The position numbers and the translations under genes were made by a program. Shown here piece after piece: positions 287 through 40,424 of a DNA stretch of 42,009 bases; the first letter of the stretch is position 1, and each line of letters opens with the position of its first letter. The notes beneath the pieces are model-generated. The model saw only the letters and a list, made by a program, of their open reading frames with translations, was not told the DNA's origin and searched no databases. Location of the stretch: contig CALGPN010000056.1 in assembly GCA_937960435.1 (NCBI GenBank), forward strand, positions 1 through 42,009, given 5' to 3'. The DNA comes from an uncultured Desulfosoma sp. GTDB lineage: Bacteria; Desulfobacterota; Syntrophobacteria; Syntrophobacterales; DSM-9756.

Positions 287-320
287 TGTTGGGGTTCGCT
301 GCGCTCACCCCAACCTACGG
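287..320 (-). repeat. REP-like palindrome family 1, copy 2
   Basis: A perfect hairpin: arms GTTGGGGT and ACCCCAAC around an 11-base loop, preceded on the minus strand by the foot CCGTAG. A hairpin with a 5' GTAG foot is the hallmark of REP sequences mobilised by RAYT (REP-associated tyrosine) transposases. No RAYT gene is present in the window. Confidence 0.85.
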
Positions 321-439: not shown

Positions 440-3322
440 TCACCCGCGGGCGTTTTCGGAGCACGAAGGGGGATCGCCGTCGATTCCCAGGAATTCTTTG
501 AGGTTTGAGACCACGGGGCGCAGGCGACGGGGATCGACCCATATCCCTACGGCGGCGATGACCGAGTGGCGTCGATAGGGGTCCACCTCAAACTGCCACG
601 GCCTCACGGCCCCTTCGATCCCTTTGTTTTTCAAAAAGACCTCAAAATCCCGAACCCGACGGCACAGGTTCTCGTATTCTTCCCGGCCGTAGACCACGCC
701 GTCGAATTCCCCGAAGGAGCATCGGCCGAAGGCGATGACATAACCGGGCTCTGCGGCCGAGGTGGCGCCCCCCTTTTCGCGCATGATGCGAAATTCGGGG
801 TAAGGGGCGAAAACCGGGTCCACATGATACAGATCCACGAATTCCCCCTCAGGCACGGCGCTTTGTAACGTCATGGGACAGCCGTGTTTCGACTGGTCCA
901 AAAACGTTCGTAAATACCTGCAGACCACGTCGAAATCTTCGTCGGGAATGGCCAAACCGATGCTCACGATGCGCGCATGGCCTTGCCCCAAGGGCGGCTC
1001 GCCTTGGATCAGGCGAAGGCGCTCCGTAAGTCGCGGGTTGATCTGCTTCAGGTAAGACATGAAATGGCGCGCCAGGATTTCCTTTTCCGCATATTTCATG
1101 AGCCCAGGATTGACTTGAATGCTGTCCAAATCCTGATCGTATTCAAAGTTGCTGGCAAAGATGAGGTAGTAGTAATGGGGAACGCGCATCAAATGAAAAC
1201 CTTCGGCCTCGAACTCCTTCACCACGCTCATGGTGCGGTTCTTGATAAAAATATCCCGGATAACGTCGCTTTCGCCTTCTCCCCGTTCTTTGGCCTTTTC
1301 CACCATGATTTCGTGAACCCAGTGGGTGCGCCACGTCGTGCACAGCATGAGCGCTCTGAGGATCTTGAGCACTTCTTCCCCCAAGCGATGCCCTCGATAA
1401 ACCAGAGGCGGCCCCAGGTCGAATTGGTCCACACGGACGTCTTTCAAAGCCAGGGTGCGTTCCCGATCCCTTTCGGGGATGTAGGTAAGGTAGGTGCCGA
1501 AAGCGTGCATGAGCTCTTTTTCGGAAACAGTCCGGTCTCCCTCCTTGAGCCGTGTTTCGAGCCTTTGGTAGTGCGCTAGCTCCAACTCCATTTGGTAATG
1601 AATATCCAGCAATGTGTCGTAATCCAGCTCATGGTAGCCGGCTCGGTCGAACTGTTCCCGCAGGTATTCCCAGTCTACGTAAAGTTTTTTGCGGATTTTC
1701 CGATCCACCAGGTAATCGTGCGCTGTGGTAAACCCCACAATGCCTCGTTCCCCATCCACGAACACTTCGCGGCCCATGTAGGCGGCCAAGGTGCATTCCG
1801 GGTTGAGTTCGATGCGGTCTTCATCCACGTACACCAAGGGCCGGCCCAACACGTCCGACACATTGATGAGATACGGTTTGCTGTAGGCCACGGCGGAGAC
1901 GGCTTCGTGGCCGGTGACGTTTCCGTCGCAACGGATGATTCCACGCACATTCGGGTGATTCACGGCCAGATCCGTCTCCCCATAGGGTCTTTTCCGCAGC
2001 ATGATGACGGCGCGACCTTGTCGGGCCGCTTCCAGGGCTTCTTCCGTCCCGAAGACCAAAACACCTCGGTCCGCCGTATCGGTAATGGGTTCGCCCACCG
2101 CGAGGACCTGATAGTCGGAAAACCCTTCGCGGAGCATCTTTTCGGGCTGTTCCAAAGCCGTGTTGATGATGAGGGAGGCCATTTGGATGGTGGTTTTTCC
2201 TTCATCCACCAGATCCCACATGGCCCGGGCCGTGGCGGAAAAGGTCATGCGCAACGGACGGCGCTGGAGAATGTAGAGTTTGCGGTCTTCCACCGTAAAT
2301 TCCACATCCAGGGGTCGCTTGGCCCGAGTTTCCAGCCGATCCCGAACGGTCATGAGCAAGTCGTAGATATCGGGAAAACGCGCTTCCAGATCCTTTGTGT
2401 GCAGGAGCTCTTTTCGGAGCTTTCCCGAGACGATCTTGTCGCATTGCACTTTAGGCGCCCATTCGATGACGGGCGTAGCCGCGCCGGTTCTCGGATTTCG
2501 TGTAAAGAGGACCCCGCCCAAACACCCGTGCTCGTCGCGGTTGCCGAAAACCATGGCCTGCACGATGACCGCCGTGCCCATATCGTCGGGGACCTTGGGG
2601 CTTCGGCTGAGCCGCGCTTCTACAGCGGTTTCCGCCATCCAGGAATGGAAAACGCTTTCGATGGCCGCCTTCAGCTGCCTCAAGGGATCGGATTCCATAG
2701 GAGCCGCCACCCCTTGGGGTGCAGCGCGAAGGAGCACCTTTTTGTAGGCGTCGATCAAGGGAAAGAGCTCATCCACAGGGACCGAGCCTTCGTCACCCAC
2801 ATGGAATTTTTGCAAGACCTCGAAAAAACGCTCGTAGGGAATTCCCAGCACCACTTCGCCGTACATGCGAATGGCTTCCAGATAGGTCCCCAAGAGGAAC
2901 GCTTCATCCTCTCCCGCTTCGATCAGGGCGGTGACGATTTCGTCATTGAGACCCACGTTGAGGATCGTGCTGATGGCCCCGGGCAAAGACACGGGGGCTC
3001 CGCCGCGCACGGCAACGATCAGCGGCATGCGGCCGCTGGTGTCGCCGTAGCGGCGCCCGACGCGGCGTTCCAAATCGGCGAGAGCCGCGGTGGCGGCGGC
3101 GAACAACCCCTCGGGTAGCGACCCGTTGTTGTCGTCAAAAGCCTTCCAGGCTTCGGTTGTCAAAATGAACCCGTCGGGCACCGAGATCCGGTGTTCCATG
3201 CCGGGAAAATCGCAGCGGAGGTTCTGGAAATCCTCCACCAACTTGGCCCCCTTGGCTCCCAGCTTGTCGATCTGGGACGGGTCAGCCTTTTCAAACGAAA
3301 GCACCATGGCATCATAGGACAT
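440..3322 (-). CDS. PPDK-like ATP-grasp/phosphohistidine protein without the PEP/pyruvate barrel
   Basis: A 960-residue protein whose first half matches pyruvate, phosphate dikinase (PPDK). Residues about 1-360 form the ATP-grasp nucleotide-binding domain: GAKGAKL at 22-28, then VRGGAPVSLPG near 105-115, where PPDK has VRSGAxVSMPG. A swivelling phosphohistidine domain follows, with His472 in GNVTGHEA at the place of the catalytic PPDK TSHAA histidine. PPDK would then continue into a PEP/pyruvate TIM barrel. Here residues about 540-960 are a different, unrecognised region rich in aromatic and charged residues. The protein can therefore be predicted to bind ATP and carry phosphate on His472, but the final acceptor is unknown and ordinary PPDK activity is doubtful. 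The start has a good Shine-Dalgarno sequence (GAGGAG). The gene is divergent from the Hdr/Fwd-like operon and about 157 bases from it, so shared regulation is possible. Alternatives are a dedicated dikinase or a regulatory paralogue. Confidence 0.85.
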   Translation of the reverse strand: MSYDAMVLSFEKADPSQIDKLGAKGAKLVEDFQNLRCDFPGMEHRISVPDGFILTTEAWKAFDDNNGSLPEGLFAAATAALADLERRVGRRYGDTSGRMPLIVAVRGGAPVSLPGAISTILNVGLNDEIVTALIEAGEDEAFLLGTYLEAIRMYGEVVLGIPYERFFEVLQKFHVGDEGSVPVDELFPLIDAYKKVLLRAAPQGVAAPMESDPLRQLKAAIESVFHSWMAETAVEARLSRSPKVPDDMGTAVIVQAMVFGNRDEHGCLGGVLFTRNPRTGAATPVIEWAPKVQCDKIVSGKLRKELLHTKDLEARFPDIYDLLMTVRDRLETRAKRPLDVEFTVEDRKLYILQRRPLRMTFSATARAMWDLVDEGKTTIQMASLIINTALEQPEKMLREGFSDYQVLAVGEPITDTADRGVLVFGTEEALEAARQGRAVIMLRKRPYGETDLAVNHPNVRGIIRCDGNVTGHEAVSAVAYSKPYLINVSDVLGRPLVYVDEDRIELNPECTLAAYMGREVFVDGERGIVGFTTAHDYLVDRKIRKKLYVDWEYLREQFDRAGYHELDYDTLLDIHYQMELELAHYQRLETRLKEGDRTVSEKELMHAFGTYLTYIPERDRERTLALKDVRVDQFDLGPPLVYRGHRLGEEVLKILRALMLCTTWRTHWVHEIMVEKAKERGEGESDVIRDIFIKNRTMSVVKEFEAEGFHLMRVPHYYYLIFASNFEYDQDLDSIQVNPGLMKYAEKEILARHFMSYLKQINPRLTERLRLIQGEPPLGQGHARIVSIGLAIPDEDFDVVCRYLRTFLDQSKHGCPMTLQSAVPEGEFVDLYHVDPVFAPYPEFRIMREKGGATSAAEPGYVIAFGRCSFGEFDGVVYGREEYENLCRRVRDFEVFLKNKGIEGAVRPWQFEVDPYRRHSVIAAVGIWVDPRRLRPVVSNLKEFLGIDGDPPSCSENARG

Positions 3323-3479
3323 GGATGGCTCCTCACAAACGGGGTCGGTGTGGATCGAAGTCGGCGTCCGGGAAGTGAAATGCGGTATAGGTCTTCATTT
3401 GATGCCATAGCTGTGCTACAAAAAAAAGGAATGTGAATTTTTTCGATTGCGCGCGCGGTTCAAACCTCTCCAGGGGATC

Positions 3480-4379
3480 ATGAAACGGGAAGACGCCCAC
3501 CGCATCCTCTTCGCCCTGCGCTTCTACCATGTGACGCTGTCCTTGGAAATCGACCGAGACCGTTGCATCCACTGCGATTTGTGTTCCTTGGCCTGTCCTC
3601 GCCAGGCCCTGCGCATCGAGGCGGACGAGCACGGCCTGCAGATCCACCTGGACTCCGGTCGATGCGTCTTCTGTGAAGTCTGCGCCTACGTGTGCCCTGT
3701 CTCGGCCGTCGAGCTGCGATATGAGGAACAGTCGAAGGAACTTCTTCGCCGATCGGGCGGCTTGCCACTCATCCCCGAAAAACTCCGGGTCGAAGTCGAT
3801 CGGTGTCCCCACCGCTGTGAACTCCTGGACTTCGAGGAAAACCACTGGTGTCGCCAGCAGCGCCGGCTCGTGGAAAACCGGGAAACCGAATGCCCCAAGT
3901 ATTGTTTTCGATGCGTGCAGAAATGCCCTCGAGGGGTCTACCGGGAAACATCCCAAGGGACGGTGCCCGACCCGGTCTCGTGTCTTCGGTGCGAGCAATG
4001 TCTGGACACGTGCCCTCAGGGCTCCATCCGCGTGACCCCTCTTTTTCGTGGCCGTGTGCTCCTGGATGCGGACCGATGCCCCGAGAATTGTTCCCTATGC
4101 CTTGACGTCTGCCCCGTAAAGGTGATCGAACGGCGAGAGGGTCGGGTCGTTTTGAGTCGCGATTCCTGCGCCTTGTGCGGTGCGTGCGCCAACGTGTGTG
4201 ACCACGACGCCATTCGAGTGGTGCGGGAGGCGGTTCTTGTGCCCGAAGGCGACACATGCGCTCTGTGGGTTCGCATCCGAGACGCCCTTACGGCAGGCCT
4301 ATGTCGCGAAGCCCCGGCCCGGTCCACTCCCCCGGTCACCGCCTCTCTACCATCCGCACAGACGGGGCCTCAGCCATGA
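3480..4379 (+). CDS. Polyferredoxin with about six [4Fe-4S] motifs (FwdF-like)
   Basis: A 299-residue soluble iron-sulfur protein and the first gene of the redox operon. Cysteine clusters of the CxxCxxCxxxC type or close variants are at residues 29-39, 62-72, 138-149, 168-178, 200-211 and 230-240. Extra cysteines at 109, 113 and 124 may complete another site. The 142-149 and 200-211 groups have the CxxxCxxCxxxC spacing seen in polyferredoxins. The role is electron wiring between flavin and Fe-S subunits, as FwdF does in the methanogen formylmethanofuran dehydrogenase complex, although FwdF carries eight clusters. I chose ATG 3480, after AGGGG, over a TTG at 3447. The stop overlaps the next start in ATGA, so the genes are translationally coupled. 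It has no signal peptide and is cytoplasmic. The Pro/Ser-rich last 25 residues are probably disordered. Confidence 0.88.
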   Translation: MKREDAHRILFALRFYHVTLSLEIDRDRCIHCDLCSLACPRQALRIEADEHGLQIHLDSGRCVFCEVCAYVCPVSAVELRYEEQSKELLRRSGGLPLIPEKLRVEVDRCPHRCELLDFEENHWCRQQRRLVENRETECPKYCFRCVQKCPRGVYRETSQGTVPDPVSCLRCEQCLDTCPQGSIRVTPLFRGRVLLDADRCPENCSLCLDVCPVKVIERREGRVVLSRDSCALCGACANVCDHDAIRVVREAVLVPEGDTCALWVRIRDALTAGLCREAPARSTPPVTASLPSAQTGPQP

Positions 4380-6517
4380 GCGGTATCGGCGTTTACATTT
4401 GCCACTGCGGCCAAAACATCGCGGGGGTGATTGACGTGCAGGCTTTGCGGGAGCGTGTGGCCTGCCGCAGTGAGGCCACGGTGGTCAAGACCAACGTCTT
4501 CTGTTGTTCCGAGCCGGGCCAGAAAGAGATCCAGGAAGACATTAAAGAACACGGCCTGGAGCGGGTCCTTGTGGCCGCATGTTCCCCCAGACTCCATGAG
4601 GTGACCTTTCGGCGAACCATCGCCCAAGCCGGCCTCAACCCCTACCTATTGGAAATGGCCAACATTCGGGAACAATGCTCATGGGTCCATCGCGGCCCGG
4701 AAGCTTTGGACAAAGCCCTGGATCTCATCCTCATGGGTTTGGCGCGGCTCGTCCGCTTGATTCCGCTCCAGGACCGAGTGGTTCCGGTGACGCGACGGGC
4801 CTTGGTCATCGGCGGCGGTGTGGGCGGTTTGAGCGCTGCCTTGGAACTGGCGGATTGCGGGGTCCCCGTGGTCCTGGTGGAAAAAAGCGTCCATCTCGGC
4901 GGCCAGGTCCTGCGATGGAACATCCCCGTTCCGAATGCCGATCCCTTGTCCTGTTTCGTGCGGCCTCTCATCACCCGGGCGATGCTCCACCCCCGCATTC
5001 GGGTGCTCGATGGCTCCACACTGGAAGACGTGCAGGGCACCATAGGTCGCTTTACGGCGTCGATTCAAGGAGCTGCGGGGTCGAGCACCGAAGAGGTGGG
5101 GGCGGTGGTGGTCGCCACCGGCTTCGAACCGTACAACCCGGATCTTTCCCGGTATCCCTTCGCCTCCCTGCCCCAGGTGATGACTTCGGTTCAGTTGGAA
5201 GAAATTTTCCGCAAGGAAAAGCCCGGACATCCCGCCACGCCCTCGGCGCTGGAAGGCGTCCGCACGGTCGCTTTTCTTCAGTGCGTCGGATCCCGTCTCG
5301 ATGAAGAATACCCTCATTGTTCGCGCATCTGCTGCGCCATCACATTAAAGCAGGCTCTGGCCTTACGGGCTCTCGGCATCGAAGTTCAGGTTTTTCATCG
5401 AGACATTCGCCTCTACGACAAGAACCAAGAAGAGGAGCTCTACGGCCGAGCCCGCCGGCTGGGCGTTCAATTTCATCGGGGGACTCTGAAGGCCGTGGAA
5501 CCGGATTCCGAAGGCGGTTTGAGGATTTGCTGGCACGATGAATTTCTTCAATCGACCTTGTGCGTTCCAACGGACCGATTGATCTGTGCGGTGGGGCTTC
5601 GGCCCAGGTCCGATGCGGAATCGTTGCGACGGGTCTTGCGTCTGGCGGTCAGTCAGGACGGGTATCTTCTGGAAGCGCACCCCAAGCTCCATCCCCTGGA
5701 GTCGGCCGTGGAAGGGGTTTTTCTGGCGGGGTCATGCCAAGGGCCGAAGGACGTCCGGGAAACGGTGGCCGCCTCTGTCGGGGCCGCCGCCAAGGCTTAC
5801 CAACTCCTGTGCAAAGATCACCTGCTCCTTGACGGCATGATCGCCGTAATCGATCGGGACCGATGCACGGGATGCGGCACTTGTGCGGCCGAATGCCCCT
5901 ACCAAGCCATCGCCCTTCGGGAAGACGAAAAGGGCACAACTAAAGCTCATGTGGAAACGGCGGCCTGCAAAGGCTGCGGCGTGTGCGCCGGATGTTGCCC
6001 GACGGAAGCCGCCGATCATTTAGGCTTTCCTTTGGAGGCGCTCAAAGCCATGGTAGATGCGGCGCTCGCGGAAGGCGCGGCCCAAAAGATCCTGGCCTTC
6101 TGCTGCCACTGGTGCGCCTACGCGGGCGCGGACGCGGCAGGGGTTTCGCGCATTCCTTATCCTGCGAACGTGCGCATCGTGCGCGTTCCGTGCTCAGGGC
6201 GCATCAGCGCTCGGCTGGTGTTGCACACTTTCAAGAAAGGGGCCAGCCGGGTTATGGTCGCCGGGTGCCATCCTCCGGGGGACTGCCATTACATTTCGGG
6301 CAATCTACGGTTCGAAAGCCGGGTCCCGCGGATTCGAAAACTTCTCTCAAAGAAAGGATACGACCCCGAACGGTTTTCGTATCACTGGGTCTCAGCCACC
6401 GAAGGGCCTCAGTTTCAGCACATCGTGCGTCGATTGGCCGAGGCGTTGGAATCCGAACAAAAAAAAACAGCGAGTTCGGCGCCCAACGCCGCGGCAGGTG
6501 ACGAGGGTGGTCGATGA
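4376..6517 (+). CDS. hdrA: HdrA-MvhD fusion flavoprotein (QmoB-like architecture)
   Basis: A 713-residue HdrA-family flavin/iron-sulfur protein. Residues 1-125 are the HdrA N-terminal cluster domain (CHCGQNIAGV at 9-18, FCCS at 42-45, AACSPRLHE, NIREQCSWVHR). Residues 140-480 are the thioredoxin-reductase-like FAD domain (GGGVGG at 146-151, LQCVGSR at 301-307). Residues 495-545 hold two [4Fe-4S] motifs. Residues about 570-690 are an MvhD (hydrogenase delta subunit) domain with FCCHWCAYAGAD, CSG and AGCHPPGDCHYISGN. This domain order is that of QmoB in sulfate reducers and of HdrA-MvhD fusions. MvhD domains normally dock HdrA to a hydrogenase or formate dehydrogenase, neither of which is encoded here. 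The segment after the FAD motif lacks the HdrA LDKTFPTLDC signature found in its neighbour. Start ATG 4376 overlaps the upstream stop; the 3' end overlaps the next gene by 4 bases. Confidence 0.92.
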   Translation: MSGIGVYICHCGQNIAGVIDVQALRERVACRSEATVVKTNVFCCSEPGQKEIQEDIKEHGLERVLVAACSPRLHEVTFRRTIAQAGLNPYLLEMANIREQCSWVHRGPEALDKALDLILMGLARLVRLIPLQDRVVPVTRRALVIGGGVGGLSAALELADCGVPVVLVEKSVHLGGQVLRWNIPVPNADPLSCFVRPLITRAMLHPRIRVLDGSTLEDVQGTIGRFTASIQGAAGSSTEEVGAVVVATGFEPYNPDLSRYPFASLPQVMTSVQLEEIFRKEKPGHPATPSALEGVRTVAFLQCVGSRLDEEYPHCSRICCAITLKQALALRALGIEVQVFHRDIRLYDKNQEEELYGRARRLGVQFHRGTLKAVEPDSEGGLRICWHDEFLQSTLCVPTDRLICAVGLRPRSDAESLRRVLRLAVSQDGYLLEAHPKLHPLESAVEGVFLAGSCQGPKDVRETVAASVGAAAKAYQLLCKDHLLLDGMIAVIDRDRCTGCGTCAAECPYQAIALREDEKGTTKAHVETAACKGCGVCAGCCPTEAADHLGFPLEALKAMVDAALAEGAAQKILAFCCHWCAYAGADAAGVSRIPYPANVRIVRVPCSGRISARLVLHTFKKGASRVMVAGCHPPGDCHYISGNLRFESRVPRIRKLLSKKGYDPERFSYHWVSATEGPQFQHIVRRLAEALESEQKKTASSAPNAAAGDEGGR

Positions 6518-8262
6518 CGACCAGACAAGGACACAAAACCTTGACACATGGCGCTCGCGTCCTCTTGTGCCGCTGTCCCGAACGGCACGGACGGCTCGAC
6601 CTCGATCGAACGGCCGAGGTTCTCTCCGAAGCGGGAATCGCCGTGCGTCTTGTGGATGCGTTATGCGACAGTAAAACTTTTCCAAAAGAAATGCTCGGAA
6701 CGGCCTTGGGCGGCGTGGAACGGCTCGTCATCGGCGCCTGTTCACCCTTTTTGATCGGCGAACTTCTCGAACAGGCCCTGCGGCACCGATGGGATCTGCG
6801 TTGGACGTTGGTGGACCTTCGGGACGTCCGCGACCCCGTCGCTTTGAGCGGCATCCTGAAAAGCCGTCTTCAGGTGTTGTCCCCCCCTTTTAAGAAAATG
6901 TGCGGGTTTCCTTCCGCCGACACCCCCCACAGGTCGCTGCGTCCCATCGGCGCCAAGGCTCCTCGGGGTGTCCTGGTCATCGGCGGCGGTGTGGGTGGCT
7001 GCCAGACGGCCTTGGACCTTGCCGGCATGGACATCCCGGTCACGCTCGTGGAAGCCGACGACTCCCTGGGCGGAAATATGGCCCGGTTGGACAAGACATT
7101 CCCCACCTTGGATTGTTCCATTTGCATCCTCGGCCCCCGGCTGGTGGACGCCGCCTCGCATCCCAACATCACGGTGCTCGCGTCGAGCCGCGTAAAGAGA
7201 ATCAGTGGACGACCGGGGCATTTCTTGGTGGAAGTGGAGCACCGCCCTCGTTACGTGGACATGACTCTGTGCTCCGGATGCGGCGCTTGCAGTGAAGTCT
7301 GTCCCGTGGTCGTCCCCAGTGCGTGGAACGCCGGTCTTCGCCCGCGAAAAGCTGTGGGCATCGTCTTCGAACAGGCCGTGCCTCTGAGGGCCGCCATTCA
7401 AAAAGAGTACTGCATCGAGTGCGGCCTGTGTGAGAAGGCCTGTGAAAGGAAGGCCATCCGCCTCGCCGAGGAACCTCGGGTGAGCCGGCTGCACACGGCG
7501 GCGGTGGTCCTTGCCGAGGGGGCCCGTCCTTTTCAGGCATCGCGTCTCGGATCCTATGGTTACGGCCGTTTTCCGGAAGTGATCACCAACCTGGAATTCG
7601 AACGGCTTGTGTGCGCCACAGGGCCGACGCAAGGATCCCTCATCACCCCCACCGGATCCCGACCTCGATCGGTGGCCTTCATCCAATGCGCCGGATCCCG
7701 CAACCGCCGCTTTCTGCCCTATTGTTCGGTCACCTGCTGCACAGCGAGCATCAAGGAGGCCATCCTTGTCCTGGAACACGAACCGGAAGCCGCCGTCACG
7801 ATCTTCTTTAACGACGTTCGAACCGCCGGGAAGAGTTTTGAAGGCCTCTTTCTGCGGGCGCGCGAGCGAGGCGTGCGTTTTGTGAAAGCCTTGCCGGATC
7901 GAGTGGAACGGGCGAAAGAAGGAGGGCGGCTTTCGGTGCATTACCGTTCCTTAGCCCATCGGGGAACCCAAACCCTGGAAGCGGATTTGGTGGTTTTGGC
8001 CGTAGGTGTCGAAGCGCCCAATGCCGATCCCCGGTGGGTCGTGCGCAGACCGCCCCAGAGGGATCGGTACGGATTCTACGAAGAGGCCTTCTTCTGGGGC
8101 GGACAGGTGGTCAGCACGGTCCCCGGTATTTTTCTTGTCGGGGGATGTCACGGTCCCAGGGACATCACCCAGACCGTCACCGAAGCCTCGGCTGCAGCAG
8201 CCCATGTGGCCAAATGGCTGCGGCGGGTCTCGTCTACCCCGGCCAAGAGCCTTGAGCCATGA
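6514..8262 (+). CDS. hdrA: HdrA-like FAD/iron-sulfur protein with altered N-terminal domain
   Basis: A 582-residue HdrA-family protein. Residues about 14-125 resemble the HdrA N-terminal domain (IGACSPFLIGELL), but the cluster-binding CHCG and FSCS motifs are lost (LLCRCP instead). Residues from 152 on are the FAD domain: VIGGGVGG, then GGNMARLDKTFPTLDC at 186-201, the HdrA signature missing from the previous gene. An insertion at 253-312 holds two [4Fe-4S] motifs (CSGCGACSEVCP, and CIECGLCEKAC). There are no C-terminal ferredoxin motifs. This is the QmoA-like or classical type, complementary to the QmoB-like neighbour, and the two probably form a pair. It overlaps genes on both sides by 4 bases (ATGA). 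It presumably passes electrons through FAD, and bifurcation is possible. The partner substrates are not evident from the sequence. Confidence 0.92.
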   Translation: MTTRQGHKTLTHGARVLLCRCPERHGRLDLDRTAEVLSEAGIAVRLVDALCDSKTFPKEMLGTALGGVERLVIGACSPFLIGELLEQALRHRWDLRWTLVDLRDVRDPVALSGILKSRLQVLSPPFKKMCGFPSADTPHRSLRPIGAKAPRGVLVIGGGVGGCQTALDLAGMDIPVTLVEADDSLGGNMARLDKTFPTLDCSICILGPRLVDAASHPNITVLASSRVKRISGRPGHFLVEVEHRPRYVDMTLCSGCGACSEVCPVVVPSAWNAGLRPRKAVGIVFEQAVPLRAAIQKEYCIECGLCEKACERKAIRLAEEPRVSRLHTAAVVLAEGARPFQASRLGSYGYGRFPEVITNLEFERLVCATGPTQGSLITPTGSRPRSVAFIQCAGSRNRRFLPYCSVTCCTASIKEAILVLEHEPEAAVTIFFNDVRTAGKSFEGLFLRARERGVRFVKALPDRVERAKEGGRLSVHYRSLAHRGTQTLEADLVVLAVGVEAPNADPRWVVRRPPQRDRYGFYEEAFFWGGQVVSTVPGIFLVGGCHGPRDITQTVTEASAAAAHVAKWLRRVSSTPAKSLEP

Positions 8263-9566
8263 CGCACAAAACCGTTACCTCCCTCGTGTGTTGCGGCTGC
8301 AGCTGCCTGTGCGACGACATCGATGCCGTCATTGACGAAGACCGCGTCGTGGAAACGGCCAACGCCTGTCGATGGGGGGCGGCCCGATTCCTGGGCCTGA
8401 AAAAGTTCAGCAGCGGTCTTCCTCGGGCGCGATGCCGAAGCAGTCGCCGGTGTCTGCACGATAAGCAGTGGAAGGATCTCCCCCTGGGCGAAGCGATCTC
8501 CCTGTGCCGAGACCACCTCTTTTTCGCGCGGCGTGTGGTGGCCTACGGCCTTGGCCAGATGTCCTCAGAGGCCCTGTGGATCCTGATGCAGGGACTTCGG
8601 GATTGGGAAACCCTTTGGATCCCCTCGGACGGTCCGATGCTGGAGGCCTTTGTGGAGGCCTATAAGCGGCAGGCTCCAGCCCTGACCCATCTGGAGTGCG
8701 TCCGGAATCAGGCCGATTTGGTGGTCTTCTGGGGTGCGAACCCGTTGCGGAGCACCCCTCGGCTTTTAAGCCGATACGGGCTTTTTCCTCGAGGGCGTTT
8801 CACCGAAAGAGGCGCCGAAGACCGGAAAGCGTGGACCGTGGACATTCAGGCGACGGAAATGGGGCGTGTGACGGAACTTGCGACAATCCCGTCCGATCAC
8901 GAAAAGGCCTGCGTTGAAGCCTTGCGCCGCGCCCACGCCGGAGGGCCCATGGAAGTTCCGGCGGGCTTGTCTGCCAAGCCATGGGCCACGCTGCTCAAAG
9001 ACGTGGAAAAGAGCCGATACCGCGTCTTTTTCTTCGGCCGAGGCCCTTTATATCATGAGCATGGGCCTGCCGTGCTGGAGGAACTGGCTTTGTGGGTCTC
9101 CGAACTCCGCGCTTCGGCTCCCACCTTTCTTGTGCCGATCCTGTGCGATTTTAACAGCATGGGGTTCCTGCAAATTTTCTTGAGCTGCGGCGGCTCGGCC
9201 AACCCCAAGTGGCGTCTTCAGGGGGACTTGCGTCGTTGGGAACCCCGACCCGGCGACGTCCTTCTGGCTCTCTCGGGGGACTGTTTTTGGTTTCTTACGG
9301 AAGACCAAAAGAACGCCGTGCGTCAACACCACATCCCCGTCTTGGCCCTGTCGGCTTATGAAACGACGACGACGGCCCATGCGGACGTAGTCCTGGCCGT
9401 GGGGCTTCAAGGATTGGACGTTTCGGGACAAGCCGCTCGGTTGGACGGAATGACCCTTTTTGCGGAAAAGCTCTGGGCCGACGCCGCGGCATCCGATGAG
9501 GCGGTCATCCGGAAGTTGTTTGACCCGCACGCAGAGATAGGAAACCCATGCGCGCCAAGACCTTGA
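8259..9566 (+). CDS. FwdB-like (formylmethanofuran dehydrogenase subunit B) protein lacking the metal-ligand Cys
   Basis: A 435-residue homologue of FwdB/FmdB, the Mo/W-bis-pterin subunit that reduces CO2 to formate in methanogens. The [4Fe-4S] site is intact: CGCSCLC (C-x2-C-x3-C within residues 11-18) followed by CDD and NACRWG, as in FwdB. Other family matches are VVFWGANPLRSTPR (FwdB: VVYWGCNPMHAHPR), GLFPRGRFTERG, FFFGRG and an AYETTTTAHADVVL stretch. At the active site, where FwdB reads SVCHGP with Cys as the tungsten ligand, this protein reads IPSDGP (Ser123, Asp124). FwdD, which completes the pterin site, is absent. I infer an Fe-S scaffold rather than a formate-forming enzyme, in the way bacterial FhcB is a non-redox FwdB relative; unlike FhcB, the cluster cysteines persist. 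It overlaps the previous gene by 4 bases and the next by 19. Confidence 0.87.
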   Translation: MTHKTVTSLVCCGCSCLCDDIDAVIDEDRVVETANACRWGAARFLGLKKFSSGLPRARCRSSRRCLHDKQWKDLPLGEAISLCRDHLFFARRVVAYGLGQMSSEALWILMQGLRDWETLWIPSDGPMLEAFVEAYKRQAPALTHLECVRNQADLVVFWGANPLRSTPRLLSRYGLFPRGRFTERGAEDRKAWTVDIQATEMGRVTELATIPSDHEKACVEALRRAHAGGPMEVPAGLSAKPWATLLKDVEKSRYRVFFFGRGPLYHEHGPAVLEELALWVSELRASAPTFLVPILCDFNSMGFLQIFLSCGGSANPKWRLQGDLRRWEPRPGDVLLALSGDCFWFLTEDQKNAVRQHHIPVLALSAYETTTTAHADVVLAVGLQGLDVSGQAARLDGMTLFAEKLWADAAASDEAVIRKLFDPHAEIGNPCAPRP

Positions 9567-10918
9567 TCTTCCAATCCGGCACCGTTTTCGACCCCGTCAC
9601 AGGGTGCGAAGGCTCGACGCGGGACATCGCCGTCTGCGGAGACAGGATTGTCGCGTTGGAACATGTTTCGGACGTGGACGAGATCGTGGACGCTTCGGGC
9701 ATGTTGGTTACGGCGGCGGCCGTCGATTGTGCAGCCCACGTGGCTTTCCCGGGGGTGTGGGCCCTTCGCGCCGCCGGACTTTTTCCCGACGGGGAGGTTC
9801 TCGTTCGCCGATATGCGGAAAGAGGCTTCGGCCATGTCCACGAAAGTTGGGCGACGCTTTTCGATTGCGGAACCGTCCAGGCCGAATGGGCGCGGATGCC
9901 GGGCCCGGATATCTCCGTCGGGCTGGGGCTTCCGCTCTATGATCTGACGACCTGGATGGAGGCCCAGGACGCCGCGACGGCGCACACCGCCCTGGAACAC
10001 CTCTGGGCCACTTTAGGAACTCATGGGTGTTATCTTCCCGAGCCGAGATTGCGCTTTCGGGATGATGTTTACAAGCATAGAGAAAAATCGGCGCAGGAGC
10101 TCGTGCCTTTTTTCCTCGAGGCGTGTCGGGGGGTCCCCGGACCCATCGTTCTTCCGGCCCGGTCGCTCCTTCGGGAAGATCTGGAGGTTCTGGCCCCCGG
10201 CATCCATGTGCAGCGTGCGGCCCTTCTTACCGAACAAGGGGCGGCGTGCCCCTTTTCCGTTCTGGCCGACGCCATAGGTTTCGGCATGAGCGCAGATCTG
10301 GGGCTGGCGTGGCCGGAAAAGGCCGTGGAACTCACATGGGTGCCGCCCGATGATGTCTCGGGAGGCCGGTTATGGGATGTGGGCTCTTTTCTCCTGCTCA
10401 AAGCCTCACCGGTCCCCGAAAAGGATTTTCGGGACGAAGAAGAAGCGGCGCGGTTCCTGGCGAAGGGACTTCCGGAAGGGTGGGCTTTTTCGTGCCGGCA
10501 GGCGAACTTGGCGCTTGTGCAGGACTGGGAAGGCTTGATCCGCGCGGTTTTGGAAGTGTGGGGCGTTCGGGAATGGTTCCTGGCGACACGCGCCCAAGCG
10601 GCAAGGGCTCTGGGATTTTCGGACCGAGGGCATCTCGCCCCGGGTGCTCGGGCCAATGTGGCGCTTTATCGAGAACCCGAGGAGGACACGGCGGCCGGGT
10701 GGGCCAAAGCCCTCAGCCGTTGTGAACGCCTCTACGTGGGCGGCCGGGAAATCTTCGATGGGAGACGTGGCCTTTTGGTGCCGCCGTCTCCTAGGGATCG
10801 ATGCGTCGGAACCGCGCCGGAGGGTTTCCGGGCGGAACTGTTCGCTCCGTTTTTGGACGGGATGAGCCTCAGACCGGAAACTCTGCGGCGCCTGGCGCCA
10901 CGGGCGGGGGAGCCTTAG
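9548..10918 (+). CDS. FwdA-like amidohydrolase-fold protein with degraded metal site
   Basis: A 456-residue relative of FwdA/FhcA, the formylmethanofuran amidohydrolase. The family is supported by its place directly after an fwdB-like gene (19-base overlap), by an N-terminal beta-rich segment (FQSGTVFDPVTG, GDRIVAL) and by the C-terminal amidohydrolase signature GHLAPGARANVALYREPEE, where FwdA has GHLGVGADANVAVYN. The FwdA metal ligands look mostly lost. The VDxHxH motif reads VDCAAHV (Ala62; only His64 kept). By eye, the regions that should carry the carboxylated lysine, the two later histidines and the aspartate have none of them. No zinc hydrolase activity is expected. With the FwdB-like change this suggests a structural pair. 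The divergence makes alignment in the middle uncertain, so a missed ligand is possible. Confidence 0.78.
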   Translation: MRAKTLIFQSGTVFDPVTGCEGSTRDIAVCGDRIVALEHVSDVDEIVDASGMLVTAAAVDCAAHVAFPGVWALRAAGLFPDGEVLVRRYAERGFGHVHESWATLFDCGTVQAEWARMPGPDISVGLGLPLYDLTTWMEAQDAATAHTALEHLWATLGTHGCYLPEPRLRFRDDVYKHREKSAQELVPFFLEACRGVPGPIVLPARSLLREDLEVLAPGIHVQRAALLTEQGAACPFSVLADAIGFGMSADLGLAWPEKAVELTWVPPDDVSGGRLWDVGSFLLLKASPVPEKDFRDEEEAARFLAKGLPEGWAFSCRQANLALVQDWEGLIRAVLEVWGVREWFLATRAQAARALGFSDRGHLAPGARANVALYREPEEDTAAGWAKALSRCERLYVGGREIFDGRRGLLVPPSPRDRCVGTAPEGFRAELFAPFLDGMSLRPETLRRLAPRAGEP

Positions 10919-10921
10919 GGC

Positions 10922-11371
10922 ATGATCCAGAAGATCCTCGAGCAGCTGCCCGGAACGGATTGTCAGATGTGCGGGATGAGTTGCGCCGACTTTGCGGCGT
11001 TTCTTCTTTCCGGAGACCTCAGCCCGCAGGAATGCCCGGTGCTGCAGGAAGATGCCTACGCCGACCGGAGGGAGGCTCTGGCGGCCCTTTTGGAAAGCCT
11101 CAAGGCACGTGCCAAGTCGGGCCATCTCATCGACCCGGACAAGTGCAACGGATGCGGGATTTGTCTCATTGTCTGTGAGTACAATGTCGCCAACGACCCG
11201 GAGAGCCGCCGCGGCAAAGGTCCCTCCAAGGATGCCAAAGTGGTGTTGCGAATCGTCAACGGCCGGGTGGTTTTGGCCGATGAAACCCTGTGCACCCGAT
11301 TGTTGCAGGCGGCGGACAAATGCAGCAAATGCCAGGACCACTGCCCCACTCAGGCCATTGTGCTCATCTGA
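10922..11371 (+). CDS. Small Fe-S protein: AcsC/RnfB-type [4Fe-4S] domain plus ferredoxin motifs
   Basis: A 149-residue cytoplasmic protein starting 3 bases after the FwdA-like stop. Residues 12-40 match the Fe-S domain found in RnfB and in the acetyl-CoA pathway corrinoid protein: C14-x2-C17-x3-C21 with C38 (TDCQMCGMSCADFAAF, then ECP). Residues 75-85 hold a standard CxxCxxCxxxC motif (CNGCGICLIVC). A last group, C124 with C134, C137 and C141 (CSKCQDHCP), looks like a ferredoxin site with a stretched first spacing. It probably carries up to three clusters and takes the place of the FwdG-type ferredoxin in this complex. It is the last gene before a REP-rich gap, so it may be the end of one transcription segment. 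Confidence 0.88.
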   Translation: MIQKILEQLPGTDCQMCGMSCADFAAFLLSGDLSPQECPVLQEDAYADRREALAALLESLKARAKSGHLIDPDKCNGCGICLIVCEYNVANDPESRRGKGPSKDAKVVLRIVNGRVVLADETLCTRLLQAADKCSKCQDHCPTQAIVLI

Positions 11372-11378
11372 AGCCCAT

Positions 11379-11408
11379 GGGGGCGGGCACAAGGCCCGCC
11401 CCTACGGG
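11379..11408 (-). repeat. REP-like palindrome family 2, copy A
   Basis: On the minus strand: foot GTAG, then arms GGGCGGGC and GCCCGCCC around loop CTTGT. It starts 8 bases after the upstream stop codon. Confidence 0.85.
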
Positions 11409-11474
11409 CGTAAGCCGCTTGCCGGGGCGGGACATGGAGGCGAACCTCAGGCAGGCGCCGCCCAGTCGGCGTCT

Positions 11475-11500
11475 GTAGGGGCGGGCCTAGTGCCCGCCCG
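11475..11500 (+). repeat. REP-like palindrome family 2, copy B (inverted)
   Basis: Same element in the opposite orientation, with loop CTAGT and a 5' GTAG foot. Inverted neighbouring copies are typical of bacterial interspersed mosaic elements. Confidence 0.85.
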
Positions 11501-11554
11501 GAAACGGGCGCCCCAAAACACTCCCGTGGATTGGCGGCGATGCGGGGAAGTCCT

Positions 11555-11584
11555 TACGGGCGGGCACAAGGCCCGCCCCTACGG
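11555..11584 (-). repeat. REP-like palindrome family 2, copy C
   Basis: Same orientation and loop as copy A, with foot GTAG. The three copies fill most of the 240-280 bases between the small Fe-S gene and the hdrC-like gene. Each folds to a strong GC hairpin, so they could attenuate transcription or protect mRNA ends inside the operon. Confidence 0.85.
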
Positions 11585-11649
11585 ACAGGAAACCGTCTGC
11601 CCCCATTGGGCTGATGATACGGAATAAACCACGCGCTAAAAACGAGGGC

Positions 11650-12147
11650 ATGGATGCAATGATGGAACACGCGTCTTCCGAAGTCCCCCTTCTTCAGGGC
11701 GATGCCGGTTTTGCAGAAGAGGTCATGGCCGGTCCCGGTGGGGACACTCTGCTTTTGTGTTATCAGTGCGGAACCTGCACGGGCTGCTGCCCTGTCGGGG
11801 CGGTGGACGAGGAGTTCAGCCCGGCCCAGATCATCCAGTGGATTCGGCTGGGCCTGCGCGAACGCGTCCTCGGATGGCCCAAAATCTGGCTCTGCCTGCA
11901 GTGCCATCGGTGTTCTTTTTCCTGCCCTCAAGGAGTGCGGTTTGCGGACATTAACGGCACCCTTCGATACCTGGCCGTTCGGGACGGTTTTTTCGACGCC
12001 TCGACCGCGGAAGAACTCGCCACCGCGGAAAAGCATCTCGCCGCGCTCCGCTGCGCCGTCCTGGAACGGACACTGCGCGGGGTTCCAGGCACGGCTCTTT
12101 CCATCCCCGAGCTCGTCCAGGACGCTCTGAGGGATCTCCATGGCTAG
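11650..12147 (+). CDS. hdrC: HdrC-like iron-sulfur protein
   Basis: A 165-residue soluble HdrC. Two [4Fe-4S] motifs are at residues 37-47 (CYQCGTCTGCCP) and 82-92 (CLQCHRCSFSCP), followed by the family's helical tail. In methanogens HdrC passes electrons from HdrA to the disulfide-reducing HdrB. No HdrB (CCG-domain protein) occurs in the window, so the partner must be another protein or a distant gene. The start is uncertain: in-frame ATGs lie at 11614, 11650, 11659 and 11662. A GAGGG at 11644-11648 fits 11659 best by spacing, and 11650 is a compromise. The gene begins after the REP patch and overlaps the next one by 8 bases. Confidence 0.88.
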   Translation: MDAMMEHASSEVPLLQGDAGFAEEVMAGPGGDTLLLCYQCGTCTGCCPVGAVDEEFSPAQIIQWIRLGLRERVLGWPKIWLCLQCHRCSFSCPQGVRFADINGTLRYLAVRDGFFDASTAEELATAEKHLAALRCAVLERTLRGVPGTALSIPELVQDALRDLHG

Positions 12148-15100
12148 CGGTCTTCAGCGAAACGAAAGCCCGCACGGAGAACCGCATCACCGGATCGTCG
12201 TGGTCGGCGGCGGTGTGGCCGGTATGCACGCGGCACTTCAGGCCGCCGATCTGGGACATCCTGTGGTGCTCTTGGAAAAAGATCTGGCCTTGGGCGGGCA
12301 CATGGCCCAGTTGGACAAGACTTACCCCACCCTGGACTGCTCCTTGTGCATTTTGTCGCCTCGCCTTCTCGCCTTCGGGAGGCACCCGAAGATTCGAGTG
12401 CTGGTGCGCGCCCGGCTGGAAAACGTGGTAGGGTGTGCTGGATCTTTTCTCTGCACCGTCACCCAGGAACCCGGTTTCGTCAACGCGGACAAGTGCATCG
12501 GATGCGGGACCTGCGCCCGGGCATGCCCGGCCGAAAGGCCCGATCCCTTCAACCTTGAGCTTGGGCCGACCAAGGCGATCCGAAGCCTTTACCCTCAAGC
12601 GTTTCCCTCAACCCATGCCATTGACCCCCAATACTGCCTCCATTTCCTCGGGGAGAGCTGCCGGCGGTGCGAGGAGGTCTGCCCCACGGGGGCCATAGAG
12701 TTCACCCAGAAGCCTTCCGTCATGGAATTGGAAGCGGGGGCCGTGATCCTGGCCGGGGGCTTCGATCTTCTCGACCGTCAGGATATCGCCCATCCCCACT
12801 GGCTCGATTGCCCCCATGTGCTGACCAATTTGGCCTTGGAACGATACTTGAGCGCCACAGGCCCAACCCGCGGCATATTGCATCCCCACGGCCTGGCCGC
12901 ACCGCCACAACATATCGTCTTCGCCCAGTGTGTGGGATCGCGGGATCCGGTCCACGGTGTCCCCTATTGTTCCGGGTACTGCTGCGCCGCGGCTCTGAAA
13001 CAAATCCAGCTCACGGCGGCTCTGCCCCACGTGGAACGCATCACCCTGTGCGCCACGGACGTTCGGGCCCACGGGAGGGACTGCGAACCTTTCTTTCGCC
13101 GCGTCCAGGCCATAGGCAAGGTCCGGCTTGTTCATGGAAGAGTAGCGGACATCGTGCCGCTGGGGACGGGCCGAGGCGTAGAAGTTCTGGCGTCGCACGG
13201 CGGCGCCCCTTGGCGCACGGAAGCCGACATGGTCGTCTTGGCCATGGGCATGCGCCCGTCTCGGGAGTGCACCCGGATCGCCGGGGTTCTTGGACTCCGG
13301 TCGGATCCCTTTGGGTACGTTTGCATCAAGGAACATCACACGGTCCACACATCTCGGGACGGGATCTATGCCTGCGGGGCCTTCATGGGGCCCAAAAGCA
13401 TCCCGTCCACGGTCCAGGAAGCGTACGCGGCGGCCATCGCTGCAAGCGCCCGTTTGACCGTCCGGCCTCAAGGGACCGAACGGGATATACCTTCAAAGCA
13501 GTCCCCAGAGCCGATCGAAACCGACGCTGAGGAAAACGCCCGACATCCCCGCCGGATCCCGGTTCCTGCGGCATCCGCTTCCGACCTTCGCATCGGCGTC
13601 TTTGTCTGTCGATGCGGCACCAATATCGCCGGCGTCATCGATACGGCCGAAGTCGCGCGATGGGTGAAAAAATTTCCCAATGTGACCTATGCCGCAGAAA
13701 ACCTCTTTTCCTGTTCCACGGACGCCACGGCGCGCATGGTTCGGATCATCCAGGAAAAGAAGCTCAACCGTGTCGTTGTGGCCGCGTGTTCGCCTCGGAG
13801 TCATCTTCCGATCTTTCAGGACGTCTTGGCCAAGGCGGGGCTCGAGCCTGGTTACATCCGCATGGTGAACATTCGGGAACAATGTTCCTGGGTCCATCGG
13901 GACAGGCCCCATGAGGCCCTCGTCAAGGCCAAAGCCCTGACGGCCGGAGCCCTTGCCCGTGTCCGCGCCGCTTTGGCCGCGCCGGCCATGAACATTCCCA
14001 TCACGCCTTCGGCCCTGGTCCTGGGCAGCAGCGTGGCCGCCTTGACGGCCGCCTTGCGCCTGGCGGACAACGGCATGGATGTTCTTGTGGTGGAATCCGG
14101 AGGCACCTTCGGCGGGCGGCTGTCTCAGGCTTCTTTCGCAGGGCCGGAAGGGAATGTAGATCGGTTATACCGTCATTTCCTCAGCCGCATTCGAACCCAA
14201 CCCAGGCTCCGCGTCCTGATGCACACCGAACTTGTGGAATGCCGGGGAGGCCTTGGGAATTTTCACCTGGAACTGCGGCGGCGCGATGCCGAGTCTCCAT
14301 CGGCTGTGGAGCGTTTCCAGGAAACCGTCGGGACCATTCTCATCGCCGTGGGGGCCGAAGTCTGGAAACCGGAAAATCTCTATGCCTACGGGCGAAGTCC
14401 TTTGGTGATGACCCAAGCCGAACTGGCAACGGCGCTGGGCCGGGACAGCGTGGACCTTTCTCGAGCCCGCTGTGTGCTCATGATCCAGTGTGTGGGGTCC
14501 CGAAACGACGAACGCCCTTACTGCAGCCGATCTTGCTGCCTGCAGGCGGTATCCCACGCGTTGGAACTCAAAAAGCGCTTCCCTCACTTGCGCGTCACCG
14601 TCGTGCACCGCGACATGCGCACCTACGGCTTGACGGAACTGATCTACCAAAAAGCACGGCAGGAAGGCATTCGCTTTCTGCGCTACGACGAAAAGCGGCC
14701 GCCCAGCGTGGAGCCCACTCGATTCGGCCGACGGTCCGCATTGGACATTCGATGGGACGAGCCCGACGCCGGCTGCACTTTTCACGAACGAGCCGATCTT
14801 CTGGTTCTCAGCACAGCCACGGTCCCGAGTCCGGAAAACCAGGACATCGCGTCGATCCTTCGCGTGCCGCTCAGCGCCGACGGCTTTTTCCTGGAAAAAC
14901 ACGTCAAACTGGCCCCCGTGGAAACGGCCGTGGAGGGCGTTTTCATCGCCGGTCAATGCCATTCTCCCAAGACCATCGCCGAAGCCTTGGTTCAAGGCGA
15001 TGCGGCGGCAGCCAAAATGCTGGCGGTCCTTCGGCAAGGGAGCGTGCGCCGCGCCGCGTTCACGGCACGCATCGATCCCGGACGGTGTTCACGATGCCTG

Positions 15101-15286
15101 AGCTGCGCGGAGGTGTGTCCCGTGCAGGCCATTCGCGTTCCCTCCTTTGGGCCGCTTCGCGTGGACCCGGGGGCCTGCCAAGGGTGCGGCCTGTGCGCCG
15201 CCGAATGCCCCGCGCGAGCCATCGATGTGGCGGGTGCTGAGGATGAGGGATTGCTTCAAGGGATGCCGTCCGTTTTTTGTGGTTGA
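12140..15286 (+). CDS. Tandem HdrA-HdrA fusion flavoprotein (1048 residues)
   Basis: Two HdrA modules in one chain. Module 1 (residues about 16-440) is the classical or QmoA-like type: GGGVAGM at 23-29, GGHMAQLDKTYPTLDC at 52-67, two [4Fe-4S] motifs in the insertion (C119-C129 and the 166-181 region), and no N-terminal cluster domain. A linker at about 443-480 (Pro/Glu/Ser/Ala-rich) joins module 2, which is the QmoB-like type: CRCGTNIAGVID at 490-501, FSCS at 523-526, AACSPRSH, NIREQCSWVHR, an FAD-like domain, MIQCVGSR, and two C-terminal ferredoxin motifs (CSRCLSCAEVCP and CQGCGLCAAECP). Module 2 lacks an MvhD tail, and its dinucleotide motif reads LGSSVAAL instead of GGGVGGL, so FAD binding there is questionable. 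The fusion mirrors, in reverse order, the separate genes at 4376 and 6514. It overlaps hdrC by 8 bases. Confidence 0.92.
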   Translation: MASGLQRNESPHGEPHHRIVVVGGGVAGMHAALQAADLGHPVVLLEKDLALGGHMAQLDKTYPTLDCSLCILSPRLLAFGRHPKIRVLVRARLENVVGCAGSFLCTVTQEPGFVNADKCIGCGTCARACPAERPDPFNLELGPTKAIRSLYPQAFPSTHAIDPQYCLHFLGESCRRCEEVCPTGAIEFTQKPSVMELEAGAVILAGGFDLLDRQDIAHPHWLDCPHVLTNLALERYLSATGPTRGILHPHGLAAPPQHIVFAQCVGSRDPVHGVPYCSGYCCAAALKQIQLTAALPHVERITLCATDVRAHGRDCEPFFRRVQAIGKVRLVHGRVADIVPLGTGRGVEVLASHGGAPWRTEADMVVLAMGMRPSRECTRIAGVLGLRSDPFGYVCIKEHHTVHTSRDGIYACGAFMGPKSIPSTVQEAYAAAIAASARLTVRPQGTERDIPSKQSPEPIETDAEENARHPRRIPVPAASASDLRIGVFVCRCGTNIAGVIDTAEVARWVKKFPNVTYAAENLFSCSTDATARMVRIIQEKKLNRVVVAACSPRSHLPIFQDVLAKAGLEPGYIRMVNIREQCSWVHRDRPHEALVKAKALTAGALARVRAALAAPAMNIPITPSALVLGSSVAALTAALRLADNGMDVLVVESGGTFGGRLSQASFAGPEGNVDRLYRHFLSRIRTQPRLRVLMHTELVECRGGLGNFHLELRRRDAESPSAVERFQETVGTILIAVGAEVWKPENLYAYGRSPLVMTQAELATALGRDSVDLSRARCVLMIQCVGSRNDERPYCSRSCCLQAVSHALELKKRFPHLRVTVVHRDMRTYGLTELIYQKARQEGIRFLRYDEKRPPSVEPTRFGRRSALDIRWDEPDAGCTFHERADLLVLSTATVPSPENQDIASILRVPLSADGFFLEKHVKLAPVETAVEGVFIAGQCHSPKTIAEALVQGDAAAAKMLAVLRQGSVRRAAFTARIDPGRCSRCLSCAEVCPVQAIRVPSFGPLRVDPGACQGCGLCAAECPARAIDVAGAEDEGLLQGMPSVFCG

Positions 15287-15324
15287 AGATCACGGATGCG
15301 TCAAACGCATGGAAGGAGCCGAGG

Positions 15325-16314
15325 ATGCAGACGGAAGCGCCGGAAAGGAACTTGGGACTGGATCTGGTTCGTGTGACGGAGGCTGCGGCGCTGGCCGCCG
15401 CACGCTGGCTTGGCCGCGGCGACGGCAAAGCCGGGGACAAGGCGGCGGTGGATGCCATGCGCCTCAGCTTCAATGCCGTGGACATCGACGGGATCGTTGT
15501 CATCGGCGAAGGGGAAAAAGACAAAGCTCCCATGCTCTACAACGGCGAAAAACTCGGCACGGGGCGCGGCCCGAAAATGGATGTGGCCGTCGACCCTGTG
15601 GAAGGCACCCGCCTTCTCGCCTTTGGCAGGCCCAACGCCATTTCGGTGGTGGCCATGGCGCCCCGTGGGTCCATGTACAATCCGGGCGCTGCCTTTTATA
15701 TGAACAAACTGGCTGTCCCAGCGGCGGCGCGCGAGGTCATCGACTTGGACGCTTCCCCGGAAGAAAACCTTAAAAACATCGCTCGGGCCCTGGGCAAGGA
15801 CGTGGACGACCTCACCGTCTTTGTCCTGGACAAACCTCGCCACAAAGACCTTATTGCGCATATTCGCAAAGCCGGCGCTCGCATTCAGCTCCACACCGAC
15901 GGCGACGTGGCGGGAGCCCTCATGGCCGTGCTGCCCGACACGAGCGTGGACGTCATGATGGGCACCGGGGGGACGCCCGAAGGCGTCCTGGCCGCGGCGG
16001 CCGTCAAGGTCGTGGGCGGGGAAATGCTGGGACGACTGGATCCCCAATCGGCCGCCGAAAAGGAGGCGCTGCTCAAAGCCGGCTACGACCTCAGTCGAGT
16101 GCTGTCCGTCAACGACTTGGTGCGAAGCGACGATGTGTTCTTTGCGGCCACGGGCATCAGCGGGGGCGATTTTCTCCCGGGGGTGCGTTTCACTGGACGC
16201 GGCGCCGTCACCTACTCGCTCGTCATGCGGGGAAAAACCGGAACGGTGCGCCGTATCGAGGCGTTCCATTCCTTCGATCAGCTCATGCGAATCAGCGCCA
16301 TCGGTTACGATTGA
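15325..16314 (+). CDS. glpX: Fructose-1,6-bisphosphatase, class II (GlpX)
   Basis: A 329-residue metal-dependent sugar phosphatase of gluconeogenesis, hydrolysing fructose 1,6-bisphosphate to fructose 6-phosphate. It follows GlpX along its whole length: N-terminal LDLVRVTEAAALAAARWLGRGD, AVDAMR, the GEGEKDKAPMLYNGE block at 61-75, the metal-binding DPVEGT at 90-95, and DGDVAGAL and GTGGTPEGVLAAAA in the C-terminal half. ATG 15325 has a GGAAGGAG ribosome site upstream and fits the family start; an earlier in-frame ATG at 15277 would overlap the upstream gene. It lies 38 bases after the HdrA-HdrA gene on the same strand with no terminator visible, so it may be co-transcribed with the redox operon, which hints at growth on C1 compounds or organic acids needing gluconeogenesis. 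Confidence 0.96.
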   Translation: MQTEAPERNLGLDLVRVTEAAALAAARWLGRGDGKAGDKAAVDAMRLSFNAVDIDGIVVIGEGEKDKAPMLYNGEKLGTGRGPKMDVAVDPVEGTRLLAFGRPNAISVVAMAPRGSMYNPGAAFYMNKLAVPAAAREVIDLDASPEENLKNIARALGKDVDDLTVFVLDKPRHKDLIAHIRKAGARIQLHTDGDVAGALMAVLPDTSVDVMMGTGGTPEGVLAAAAVKVVGGEMLGRLDPQSAAEKEALLKAGYDLSRVLSVNDLVRSDDVFFAATGISGGDFLPGVRFTGRGAVTYSLVMRGKTGTVRRIEAFHSFDQLMRISAIGYD

Positions 16315-36877: not shown

Positions 36878-37046
36878 ACAAATCAAGAGGAAACGGATCG
36901 AAAAAACGGCGTCCGGTCCACGCCTTTTTTTTCCTTCAAGTTTCTCTCTCGTCCTGCCGAATAACGTAATGGCTTGTCTGCGCCTGGATTCGGGAAAGGA
37001 AGAGGCCCTCGGTCGTGGAACATTTTGACACCATGGAGGAATGCCG

Positions 37047-40000: not shown

Positions 40001-40424
40001 TCGGCGCATCAAACCTCTGATGGAGTGGAGCCCCGAGTACTCTGTGGGTGATTTCGAAATCGACCAACAGCACCAGAAACTTTTCAAGATGGTGAACGGG
40101 CTGAACGAAGCCATGCAGTCAGGCCAAGGCCGAGCCATCCTGGCGCGGCTGCTTACGGATCTAGTGGACTATACCGAGAAACACTTTGCGGCGGAAGAGC
40201 GGGCCATGGAACAGGCCGATTACCCGGATCTGGAGGCGCACCGGGAAGTGCACGAAAAACTGACACAGCAGGTTAGGGAGATCGTTGAGCGGTTCCAAAA
40301 CGGCGAAACGGGACTCAGCCTGGAAGTTATGAAGTTTCTCGAGCAATGGCTAAAAAAACACATTCTCGGCATGGACAAAAAATACGGCCCTTATTTGCGG
40401 AAAGGAAATGAGGCGATATTCTAA
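37047..40424 (+). CDS. Methyl-accepting chemotaxis protein with Cache sensors and C-terminal hemerythrin
   Basis: A 1125-residue chemoreceptor. N-terminal helix ([18 protein letters not shown]), then a periplasmic region of about 600 residues with two Cache-type sensors. The first has [21 protein letters not shown] and YVGVP. The second has [32 protein letters not shown] and [15 protein letters not shown] second helix lies near 628-648 ([20 protein letters not shown]), followed by the MCP coiled coil with its tip [24 protein letters not shown] near residue 763. Residues about 992-1125 are hemerythrin, with di-iron ligands in [24 protein letters not shown] and KKHILGMDK. As in DcrH, it should sense oxygen or another diatomic ligand and redox conditions for taxis. 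GGAGGA at 37035-37040 favours ATG 37047 over 37041. Confidence 0.95.

Follow-up and report, generated by a model that had tools for sequence, protein, structure and literature searches.

A PPDK-like protein of Syntrophobacterales with a new C-terminal half and no recognisable PEP/pyruvate barrel

The gene and its PPDK-type N-terminal half

The window analysed here is a stretch of 42,009 nucleotides from an uncultured Desulfosoma sp. Near its start, the minus strand carries an intact open reading frame (440..3322, with the ATG at 3322 and the stop codon ending at 440) for a PPDK-like protein of 960 amino acids with a new C-terminal half, as delimited by the reading frame, PPDK matches and ortholog alignment. 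An Hdr/Fwd-like operon (3447-15286) lies divergent to the gene and is followed by glpX, encoding a class II fructose-1,6-bisphosphatase (15277..16314, plus strand), considered here as context only. Across 3447-16314 the operon comprises a FwdF-like polyferredoxin, three HdrA-like proteins, FwdB-like and FwdA-like proteins, an FeS protein and HdrC, and then glpX. Downstream of the gene lie two copies (window positions 291-317 and 363-389) of a 27-base REP-like repeat, GGGGTTCGCTGCGCTCACCCCAACCTA, which occurs in 120 copies genome-wide at up to 2 mismatches, against 0 for the reversed control. Elsewhere in the window, 37041-40424 encodes a 1127-aa chemotaxis receptor-like protein with a C-terminal bacteriohemerythrin domain.

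Residues 6-489 correspond to the N-terminal half of PPDK, matching positions 3-467 of the 865 in TIGR01828 at 2.8e-83. PF01326 is matched at 1.6e-24, as befits an ATP-grasp domain of the PPDK/PEP synthase superfamily, and PDB sequences of PPDK are matched down to 9.5e-56 (1vbg). The protein scores 280 bits with TIGR01828, below the PPDK equivalog threshold of 843, and it scores much less with the models of other dikinases (35 bits for PEP synthase, 20.7 bits for rifampin phosphotransferase, RPH). The PPDK-type ATP-grasp domain occupies residues 1-360 (2243..3322, minus strand) and the swivelling phosphohistidine domain residues 406-530 (1733..2107, minus strand), the latter placed by PPDK alignment together with a PF00391 match (E 0.00096) that falls short of the curated cut-off of that model. 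In an alignment with C. symbiosum PPDK (1kbl), His472 falls on the catalytic His455, Thr470 on T453 and Arg355 on R337. His472 (codon 1907..1909, minus strand), in the motif T-[GS]-H-E-A-V-S, is predicted from this alignment and its invariance to be the phosphorylated residue of a swivelling domain of the superfamily type. His472, Thr470, Lys24, Arg106, Asp339, Glu341, Gln353 and Arg355 are all invariant in 20 orthologs, and they include the equivalents of PPDK K22, R92, D321, E323, Q335 and R337, which we take to have ATP-binding roles. Conserved ATP-grasp and phosphohistidine (His472) domains had been proposed in a sequence-only reading of the locus, and the PPDK matches and the invariance agree with it.

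The surroundings of the histidine have changed. GGMTSHAA of PPDK is replaced by DGNxTGHEA in the family of the 960-aa protein, and VQCDKIVSG stands where PPDK has its conserved AQGEDVVAG; the chemistry may therefore have shifted. A Foldseek search with the full-length model retrieves PPDK at 5e-29, then RPH at 4e-7; the carrier domain of PPDK on its own (2fm4) is reached at 1.2e-3. This model is weak (pTM 0.44) and does not fix the placement of the C-terminal half against the His domain.

A C-terminal half with an internal duplication

The C-terminal half spans residues ~531-946, about 416 amino acids, and is predicted to consist of a helical part of ~160 residues and then a duplicated alpha/beta domain. 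The helical part (residues 545-706; 1205..1690, minus strand) has conserved TWxTHWxHE-like and RDIxxKNxTMS motifs, and its AlphaFold pLDDT is mostly 80-94. Repeat 1 (residues 709-813; 884..1198, minus strand) carries the motif R770-x4-E775-x6-H782-x2-I785-x3-G789, and repeat 2 (residues 842-946; 485..799, minus strand) carries R907-x4-E912-x6-H919-x2-I922-x3-G926. An AlphaFold2 model of the C-terminal half, built with 20 family sequences and starting at residue 512, has a pLDDT of 78.5 and a pTM of 0.68, with long helices at ~551-706 and alpha/beta units at ~710-813 and ~845-944.

The duplication was identified by profile comparison. The profile of residues 706-815 aligns with that of residues 840-946 with an hhalign score of 29.8 (P 9e-5), compared with 21.8 for the best of 300 column shuffles and 13.3 for a reversed profile, and the helical part matches neither repeat (hhalign P about 0.06). 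A joint alignment of the repeats comprises 22 rows, which all agree only in the columns R, E, H, I, G and L; R-x4-E-x6-H-x2-I-x3-G is kept in both copies. The motif loops (residues 779-783 and 914-920) are modelled at low confidence, so their geometry is not fixed by the model.

The fold was sought in several collections. No Pfam match to the C-terminal half is common to 20 members, and PDB sequences give none even at E 10. At E<=0.001, Foldseek returns nothing from the PDB for the C-terminal half model and nothing from BFVD. With the half modelled as a whole, the best Foldseek E value against solved folds is 0.03, and the best VIA-align Z is 6.7 over 102 residues, a value of the kind that the tool calls common. 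HIT/GalT-like, ACT-like and ARPC2-like folds were considered and rejected, since they reach Foldseek E values of 0.03-0.8 and VIA Z values of 5-6.7, which are weak and within noise. A profile of the two repeats has a best E of 0.25 against PDB sequences and, in the sampled genomes of the phylum, picks up no further protein. The sequence-only reading held that the barrel has been replaced by some 420 unrecognised residues, and these Pfam, PDB-sequence and fold searches bear it out. It also named a TIM barrel hidden in the C-terminal half as the finding that would overturn it. No such barrel was seen by structure prediction or profile comparison: the predicted secondary structure lacks the (beta/alpha)8 pattern, Pfam gives no barrel match, and hhalign against canonical PPDK gives a probability of 0.9%.

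The C-terminal half is under purifying selection and nearly as constrained as the N-terminal half. Invariant columns make up 101 of its 416 positions (24%), compared with 155 of 530 (29%) in the N-terminal half, and pairwise identity averages 58% in the former and 64% in the latter. The invariant positions of the C-terminal half include 46 polar, cysteine or aromatic residues. Its dN/dS is 0.05 against two congeners and 0.08-0.09 against Desulfacinum, values that are rough because dS is near saturation. There is next to no chance that the protein is a decayed or misassembled PPDK whose C-terminal half is a frame artefact. Nothing was found in favour of such decay, and it is already refuted by the orthologs, which share the architecture of the protein and come from 22 other genomes. 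Since their C-terminal halves are 50-86% identical and dN/dS, at 0.05-0.09, is far below 1, the C-terminal half is not a product of chance.

Distribution, paralogs and known dikinases

Of 77 related genomes, 23 have the C-terminal half, and all 23 belong to the order Syntrophobacterales; when 395 genomes from across the phylum were searched with a profile, it again appeared in this order only. A scan of 84,980 species, the sole search beyond the phylum, used two exact peptide patterns and could miss distant relatives; it recovered the same lineage, namely Desulfacinum, Desulfoferrobacter and MAGs labelled Deltaproteobacteria, Syntrophobacteraceae or Syntrophobacterales. Relatives of the C-terminal half were absent from plasmids (tblastn) and from viral contigs (exact peptide-pattern scan), and a literature search found no paper on the family of the 960-aa protein.

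Each of the 39 genomes of the order has a match to TIGR01828, which exceeds the cut-off in 38. Canonical PPDK is thus present throughout the order, and the 960-aa protein is an extra paralog. In a tree of the N-terminal half, the family forms one clade (SH-aLRT 100) apart from canonical PPDK and from a PPDK_N paralog of ~1440 aa; this tree comes from a quick search and the stem of the clade is long (3.5 changes per site), which leaves the exact point of attachment uncertain. The ~1440-aa paralog is encoded in the genome of the window at L087:1279-5610 (G000 contig C3), beside a GAPDH-like gene; almost all genomes of the order have it, and so do other families of the phylum. It resembles the 960-aa protein in having a PPDK-type ATP-grasp and His domain, here at the C-terminus, without a TIM barrel. 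It differs in carrying ~950 extra residues at the N-terminus, and kinship of this extension with the C-terminal half of the 960-aa protein was rejected (hhalign probability 0.1%).

The 960-aa protein shares with PPDK (TIGR01828, PDB 1kbl) an ATP-grasp domain followed by a swivelling phosphohistidine domain with the catalytic residues kept, but it has an unrelated C-terminal half of 416 aa where PPDK has the PEP/pyruvate TIM barrel, and it forms its own long-stemmed clade alongside canonical PPDK in the same order. RPH has the order ATP-grasp domain, acceptor domain and C-terminal His domain, whereas the His domain of the 960-aa protein is mid-chain (406-530) and the new module follows it. The score of 20.7 bits with the RPH model NF041857 is far below its cut-off of 999, and the C-terminal half is unrelated to RPH in all searches run. 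What the two have in common is the general dikinase logic, by analogy, in that the ATP-grasp and swivelling His domains of RPH serve a non-pyruvate acceptor domain (PMC4844700). The dikinases PpsAB, CreHI and HpeHI are two-component enzymes of phenolic compounds, in which the machinery has been recruited for other small molecules (PMC12167813). These are split in two proteins with RPH-like swivel and acceptor domains, whereas the 960-aa protein has a PPDK-type N-terminal half and every full-length ortholog is a single chain of ~950 aa. The sequence-only reading had suggested an RPH-like dikinase with a different acceptor. The different acceptor half is supported by the kept catalytic residues, the absent barrel and the separate canonical PPDK, but the likeness to RPH goes no further than a general analogy, in view of the domain order and of 280 bits for PPDK against 20.7 for RPH.

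Gene neighbourhood and possible function

The neighbour that stays constant within the family to which the window belongs is glpX, divergent to the gene in six of six members having the gene. Both congeners of the window's genus have the identical gene order, with the Hdr/Fwd-like operon and then glpX. In the sister genus Desulfacinum, of the same family, D. infernum and a MAG have an Hnd-like set (thioredoxin-like 2Fe-2S, NuoF-type and NuoG-type proteins) between the gene and glpX, and in D. hydrothermale glpX is directly divergent from the gene with nothing between. The intervening redox module is therefore interchangeable, and the site looks as if redox modules were exchanged there. A functional link to the Hdr/Fwd-like operon, proposed in the sequence-only reading from its location, would have the protein act with the operon in C1 or electron metabolism. 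The two are divergent neighbours in three of three genomes of the window's genus, but this adjacency is absent from Desulfacinum and no such operon adjoins the gene elsewhere in the order; a joint function is very improbable. The link to glpX, if meaningful, points to central carbon metabolism. Outside the family, the neighbours are varied and include canonical PPDK, UDP-glucose dehydrogenase, aconitase, glycogen synthase and a phosphate transporter. The gene comes directly after a divergent pyruvate-type 2-oxoacid:ferredoxin oxidoreductase in five genomes, all belonging to one other genus. One such oxidoreductase is a fused protein of ~1296 aa (L082:4472-8353), which ends about 90 bases before the PPDK-like gene and scores far under the pyruvate cut-off (346 against 911 bits).

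Central-carbon neighbours of this kind could mean that interconversion of pyruvate, or another 2-oxo acid, and its enol phosphate has been kept, with the C-terminal half as an unrelated fold doing the work of the barrel. Consistent with this are glpX, the oxidoreductase and, in one genome, a canonical PPDK about 1.3 kb downstream of the gene. Yet canonical PPDK is already there in the genomes of the order, and the C-terminal half has no similarity to that of PPDK. A partnership with the 1296-aa oxidoreductase was rejected, as the adjacency is limited to one genus, the oxidoreductase is absent from the genome of the window, and co-occurrence is not significant (8/9 against 15/30, Fisher p 0.056). 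Retention of the pyruvate reaction is accordingly quite unlikely. A regulatory or interaction role of the C-terminal half is likewise unlikely; here the protein would be a sensor or part of a phosphorelay, passing the phosphate of His472 to another protein or reporting ATP/phosphate status. Repeat 2 weakly matches ACT-type regulatory domains (CASTOR1 Z 5.7, aspartokinase Z about 4.8) and no known enzyme fold was recognised in the C-terminal half, but the tool itself places such Z values within noise. Moreover, the many invariant Arg, His, Glu and Asp residues of the C-terminal half, some of them in both repeats, are more like a catalytic or phosphate-binding site.

The explanation towards which the evidence leans, by a modest degree, is a phosphohistidine dikinase of the PPDK branch in which the PEP barrel has been replaced by a new acceptor module. 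The ATP-grasp half would bind ATP and phosphorylate His472 on the swivelling domain, the catalytic role of this residue being suggested by its conservation. AMP would be released at this step, together with PPi should the enzyme, like PPDK, use orthophosphate. The swivelling domain would then carry the phosphoryl group to the C-terminal module, whose helical part and duplicated alpha/beta domain with paired R-E-H motifs would take the place of the PEP/pyruvate TIM barrel. That this module is the acceptor site is suggested by its position, its constraint and its invariant polar residues; it would bind an acceptor other than that of the canonical PPDK of the cell, presumably a small molecule. 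As the front half of PPDK is joined to a C-terminal half of unknown type that is limited to one group, the substrate of the 960-aa protein is probably one that is phosphorylated by none of its known relatives.

More tentatively, the family could represent dikinases with an unseen acceptor fold, formed by duplication of an alpha/beta domain and bearing two R-E-H sites, that perform a phosphorylation new to the superfamily and tied to the carbon metabolism of Syntrophobacterales. PPDK-type machinery is modular, and swaps of its acceptor half have yielded enzymes for antibiotics and phenols. Under the preferred reading, a replacement of the barrel would have happened on the PPDK branch itself. 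A lineage-specific and strongly conserved half of no recognisable fold, present beside canonical PPDK, offers a compact starting point from which a new phosphorylation reaction might be discovered in sulfate reducers and related organisms.
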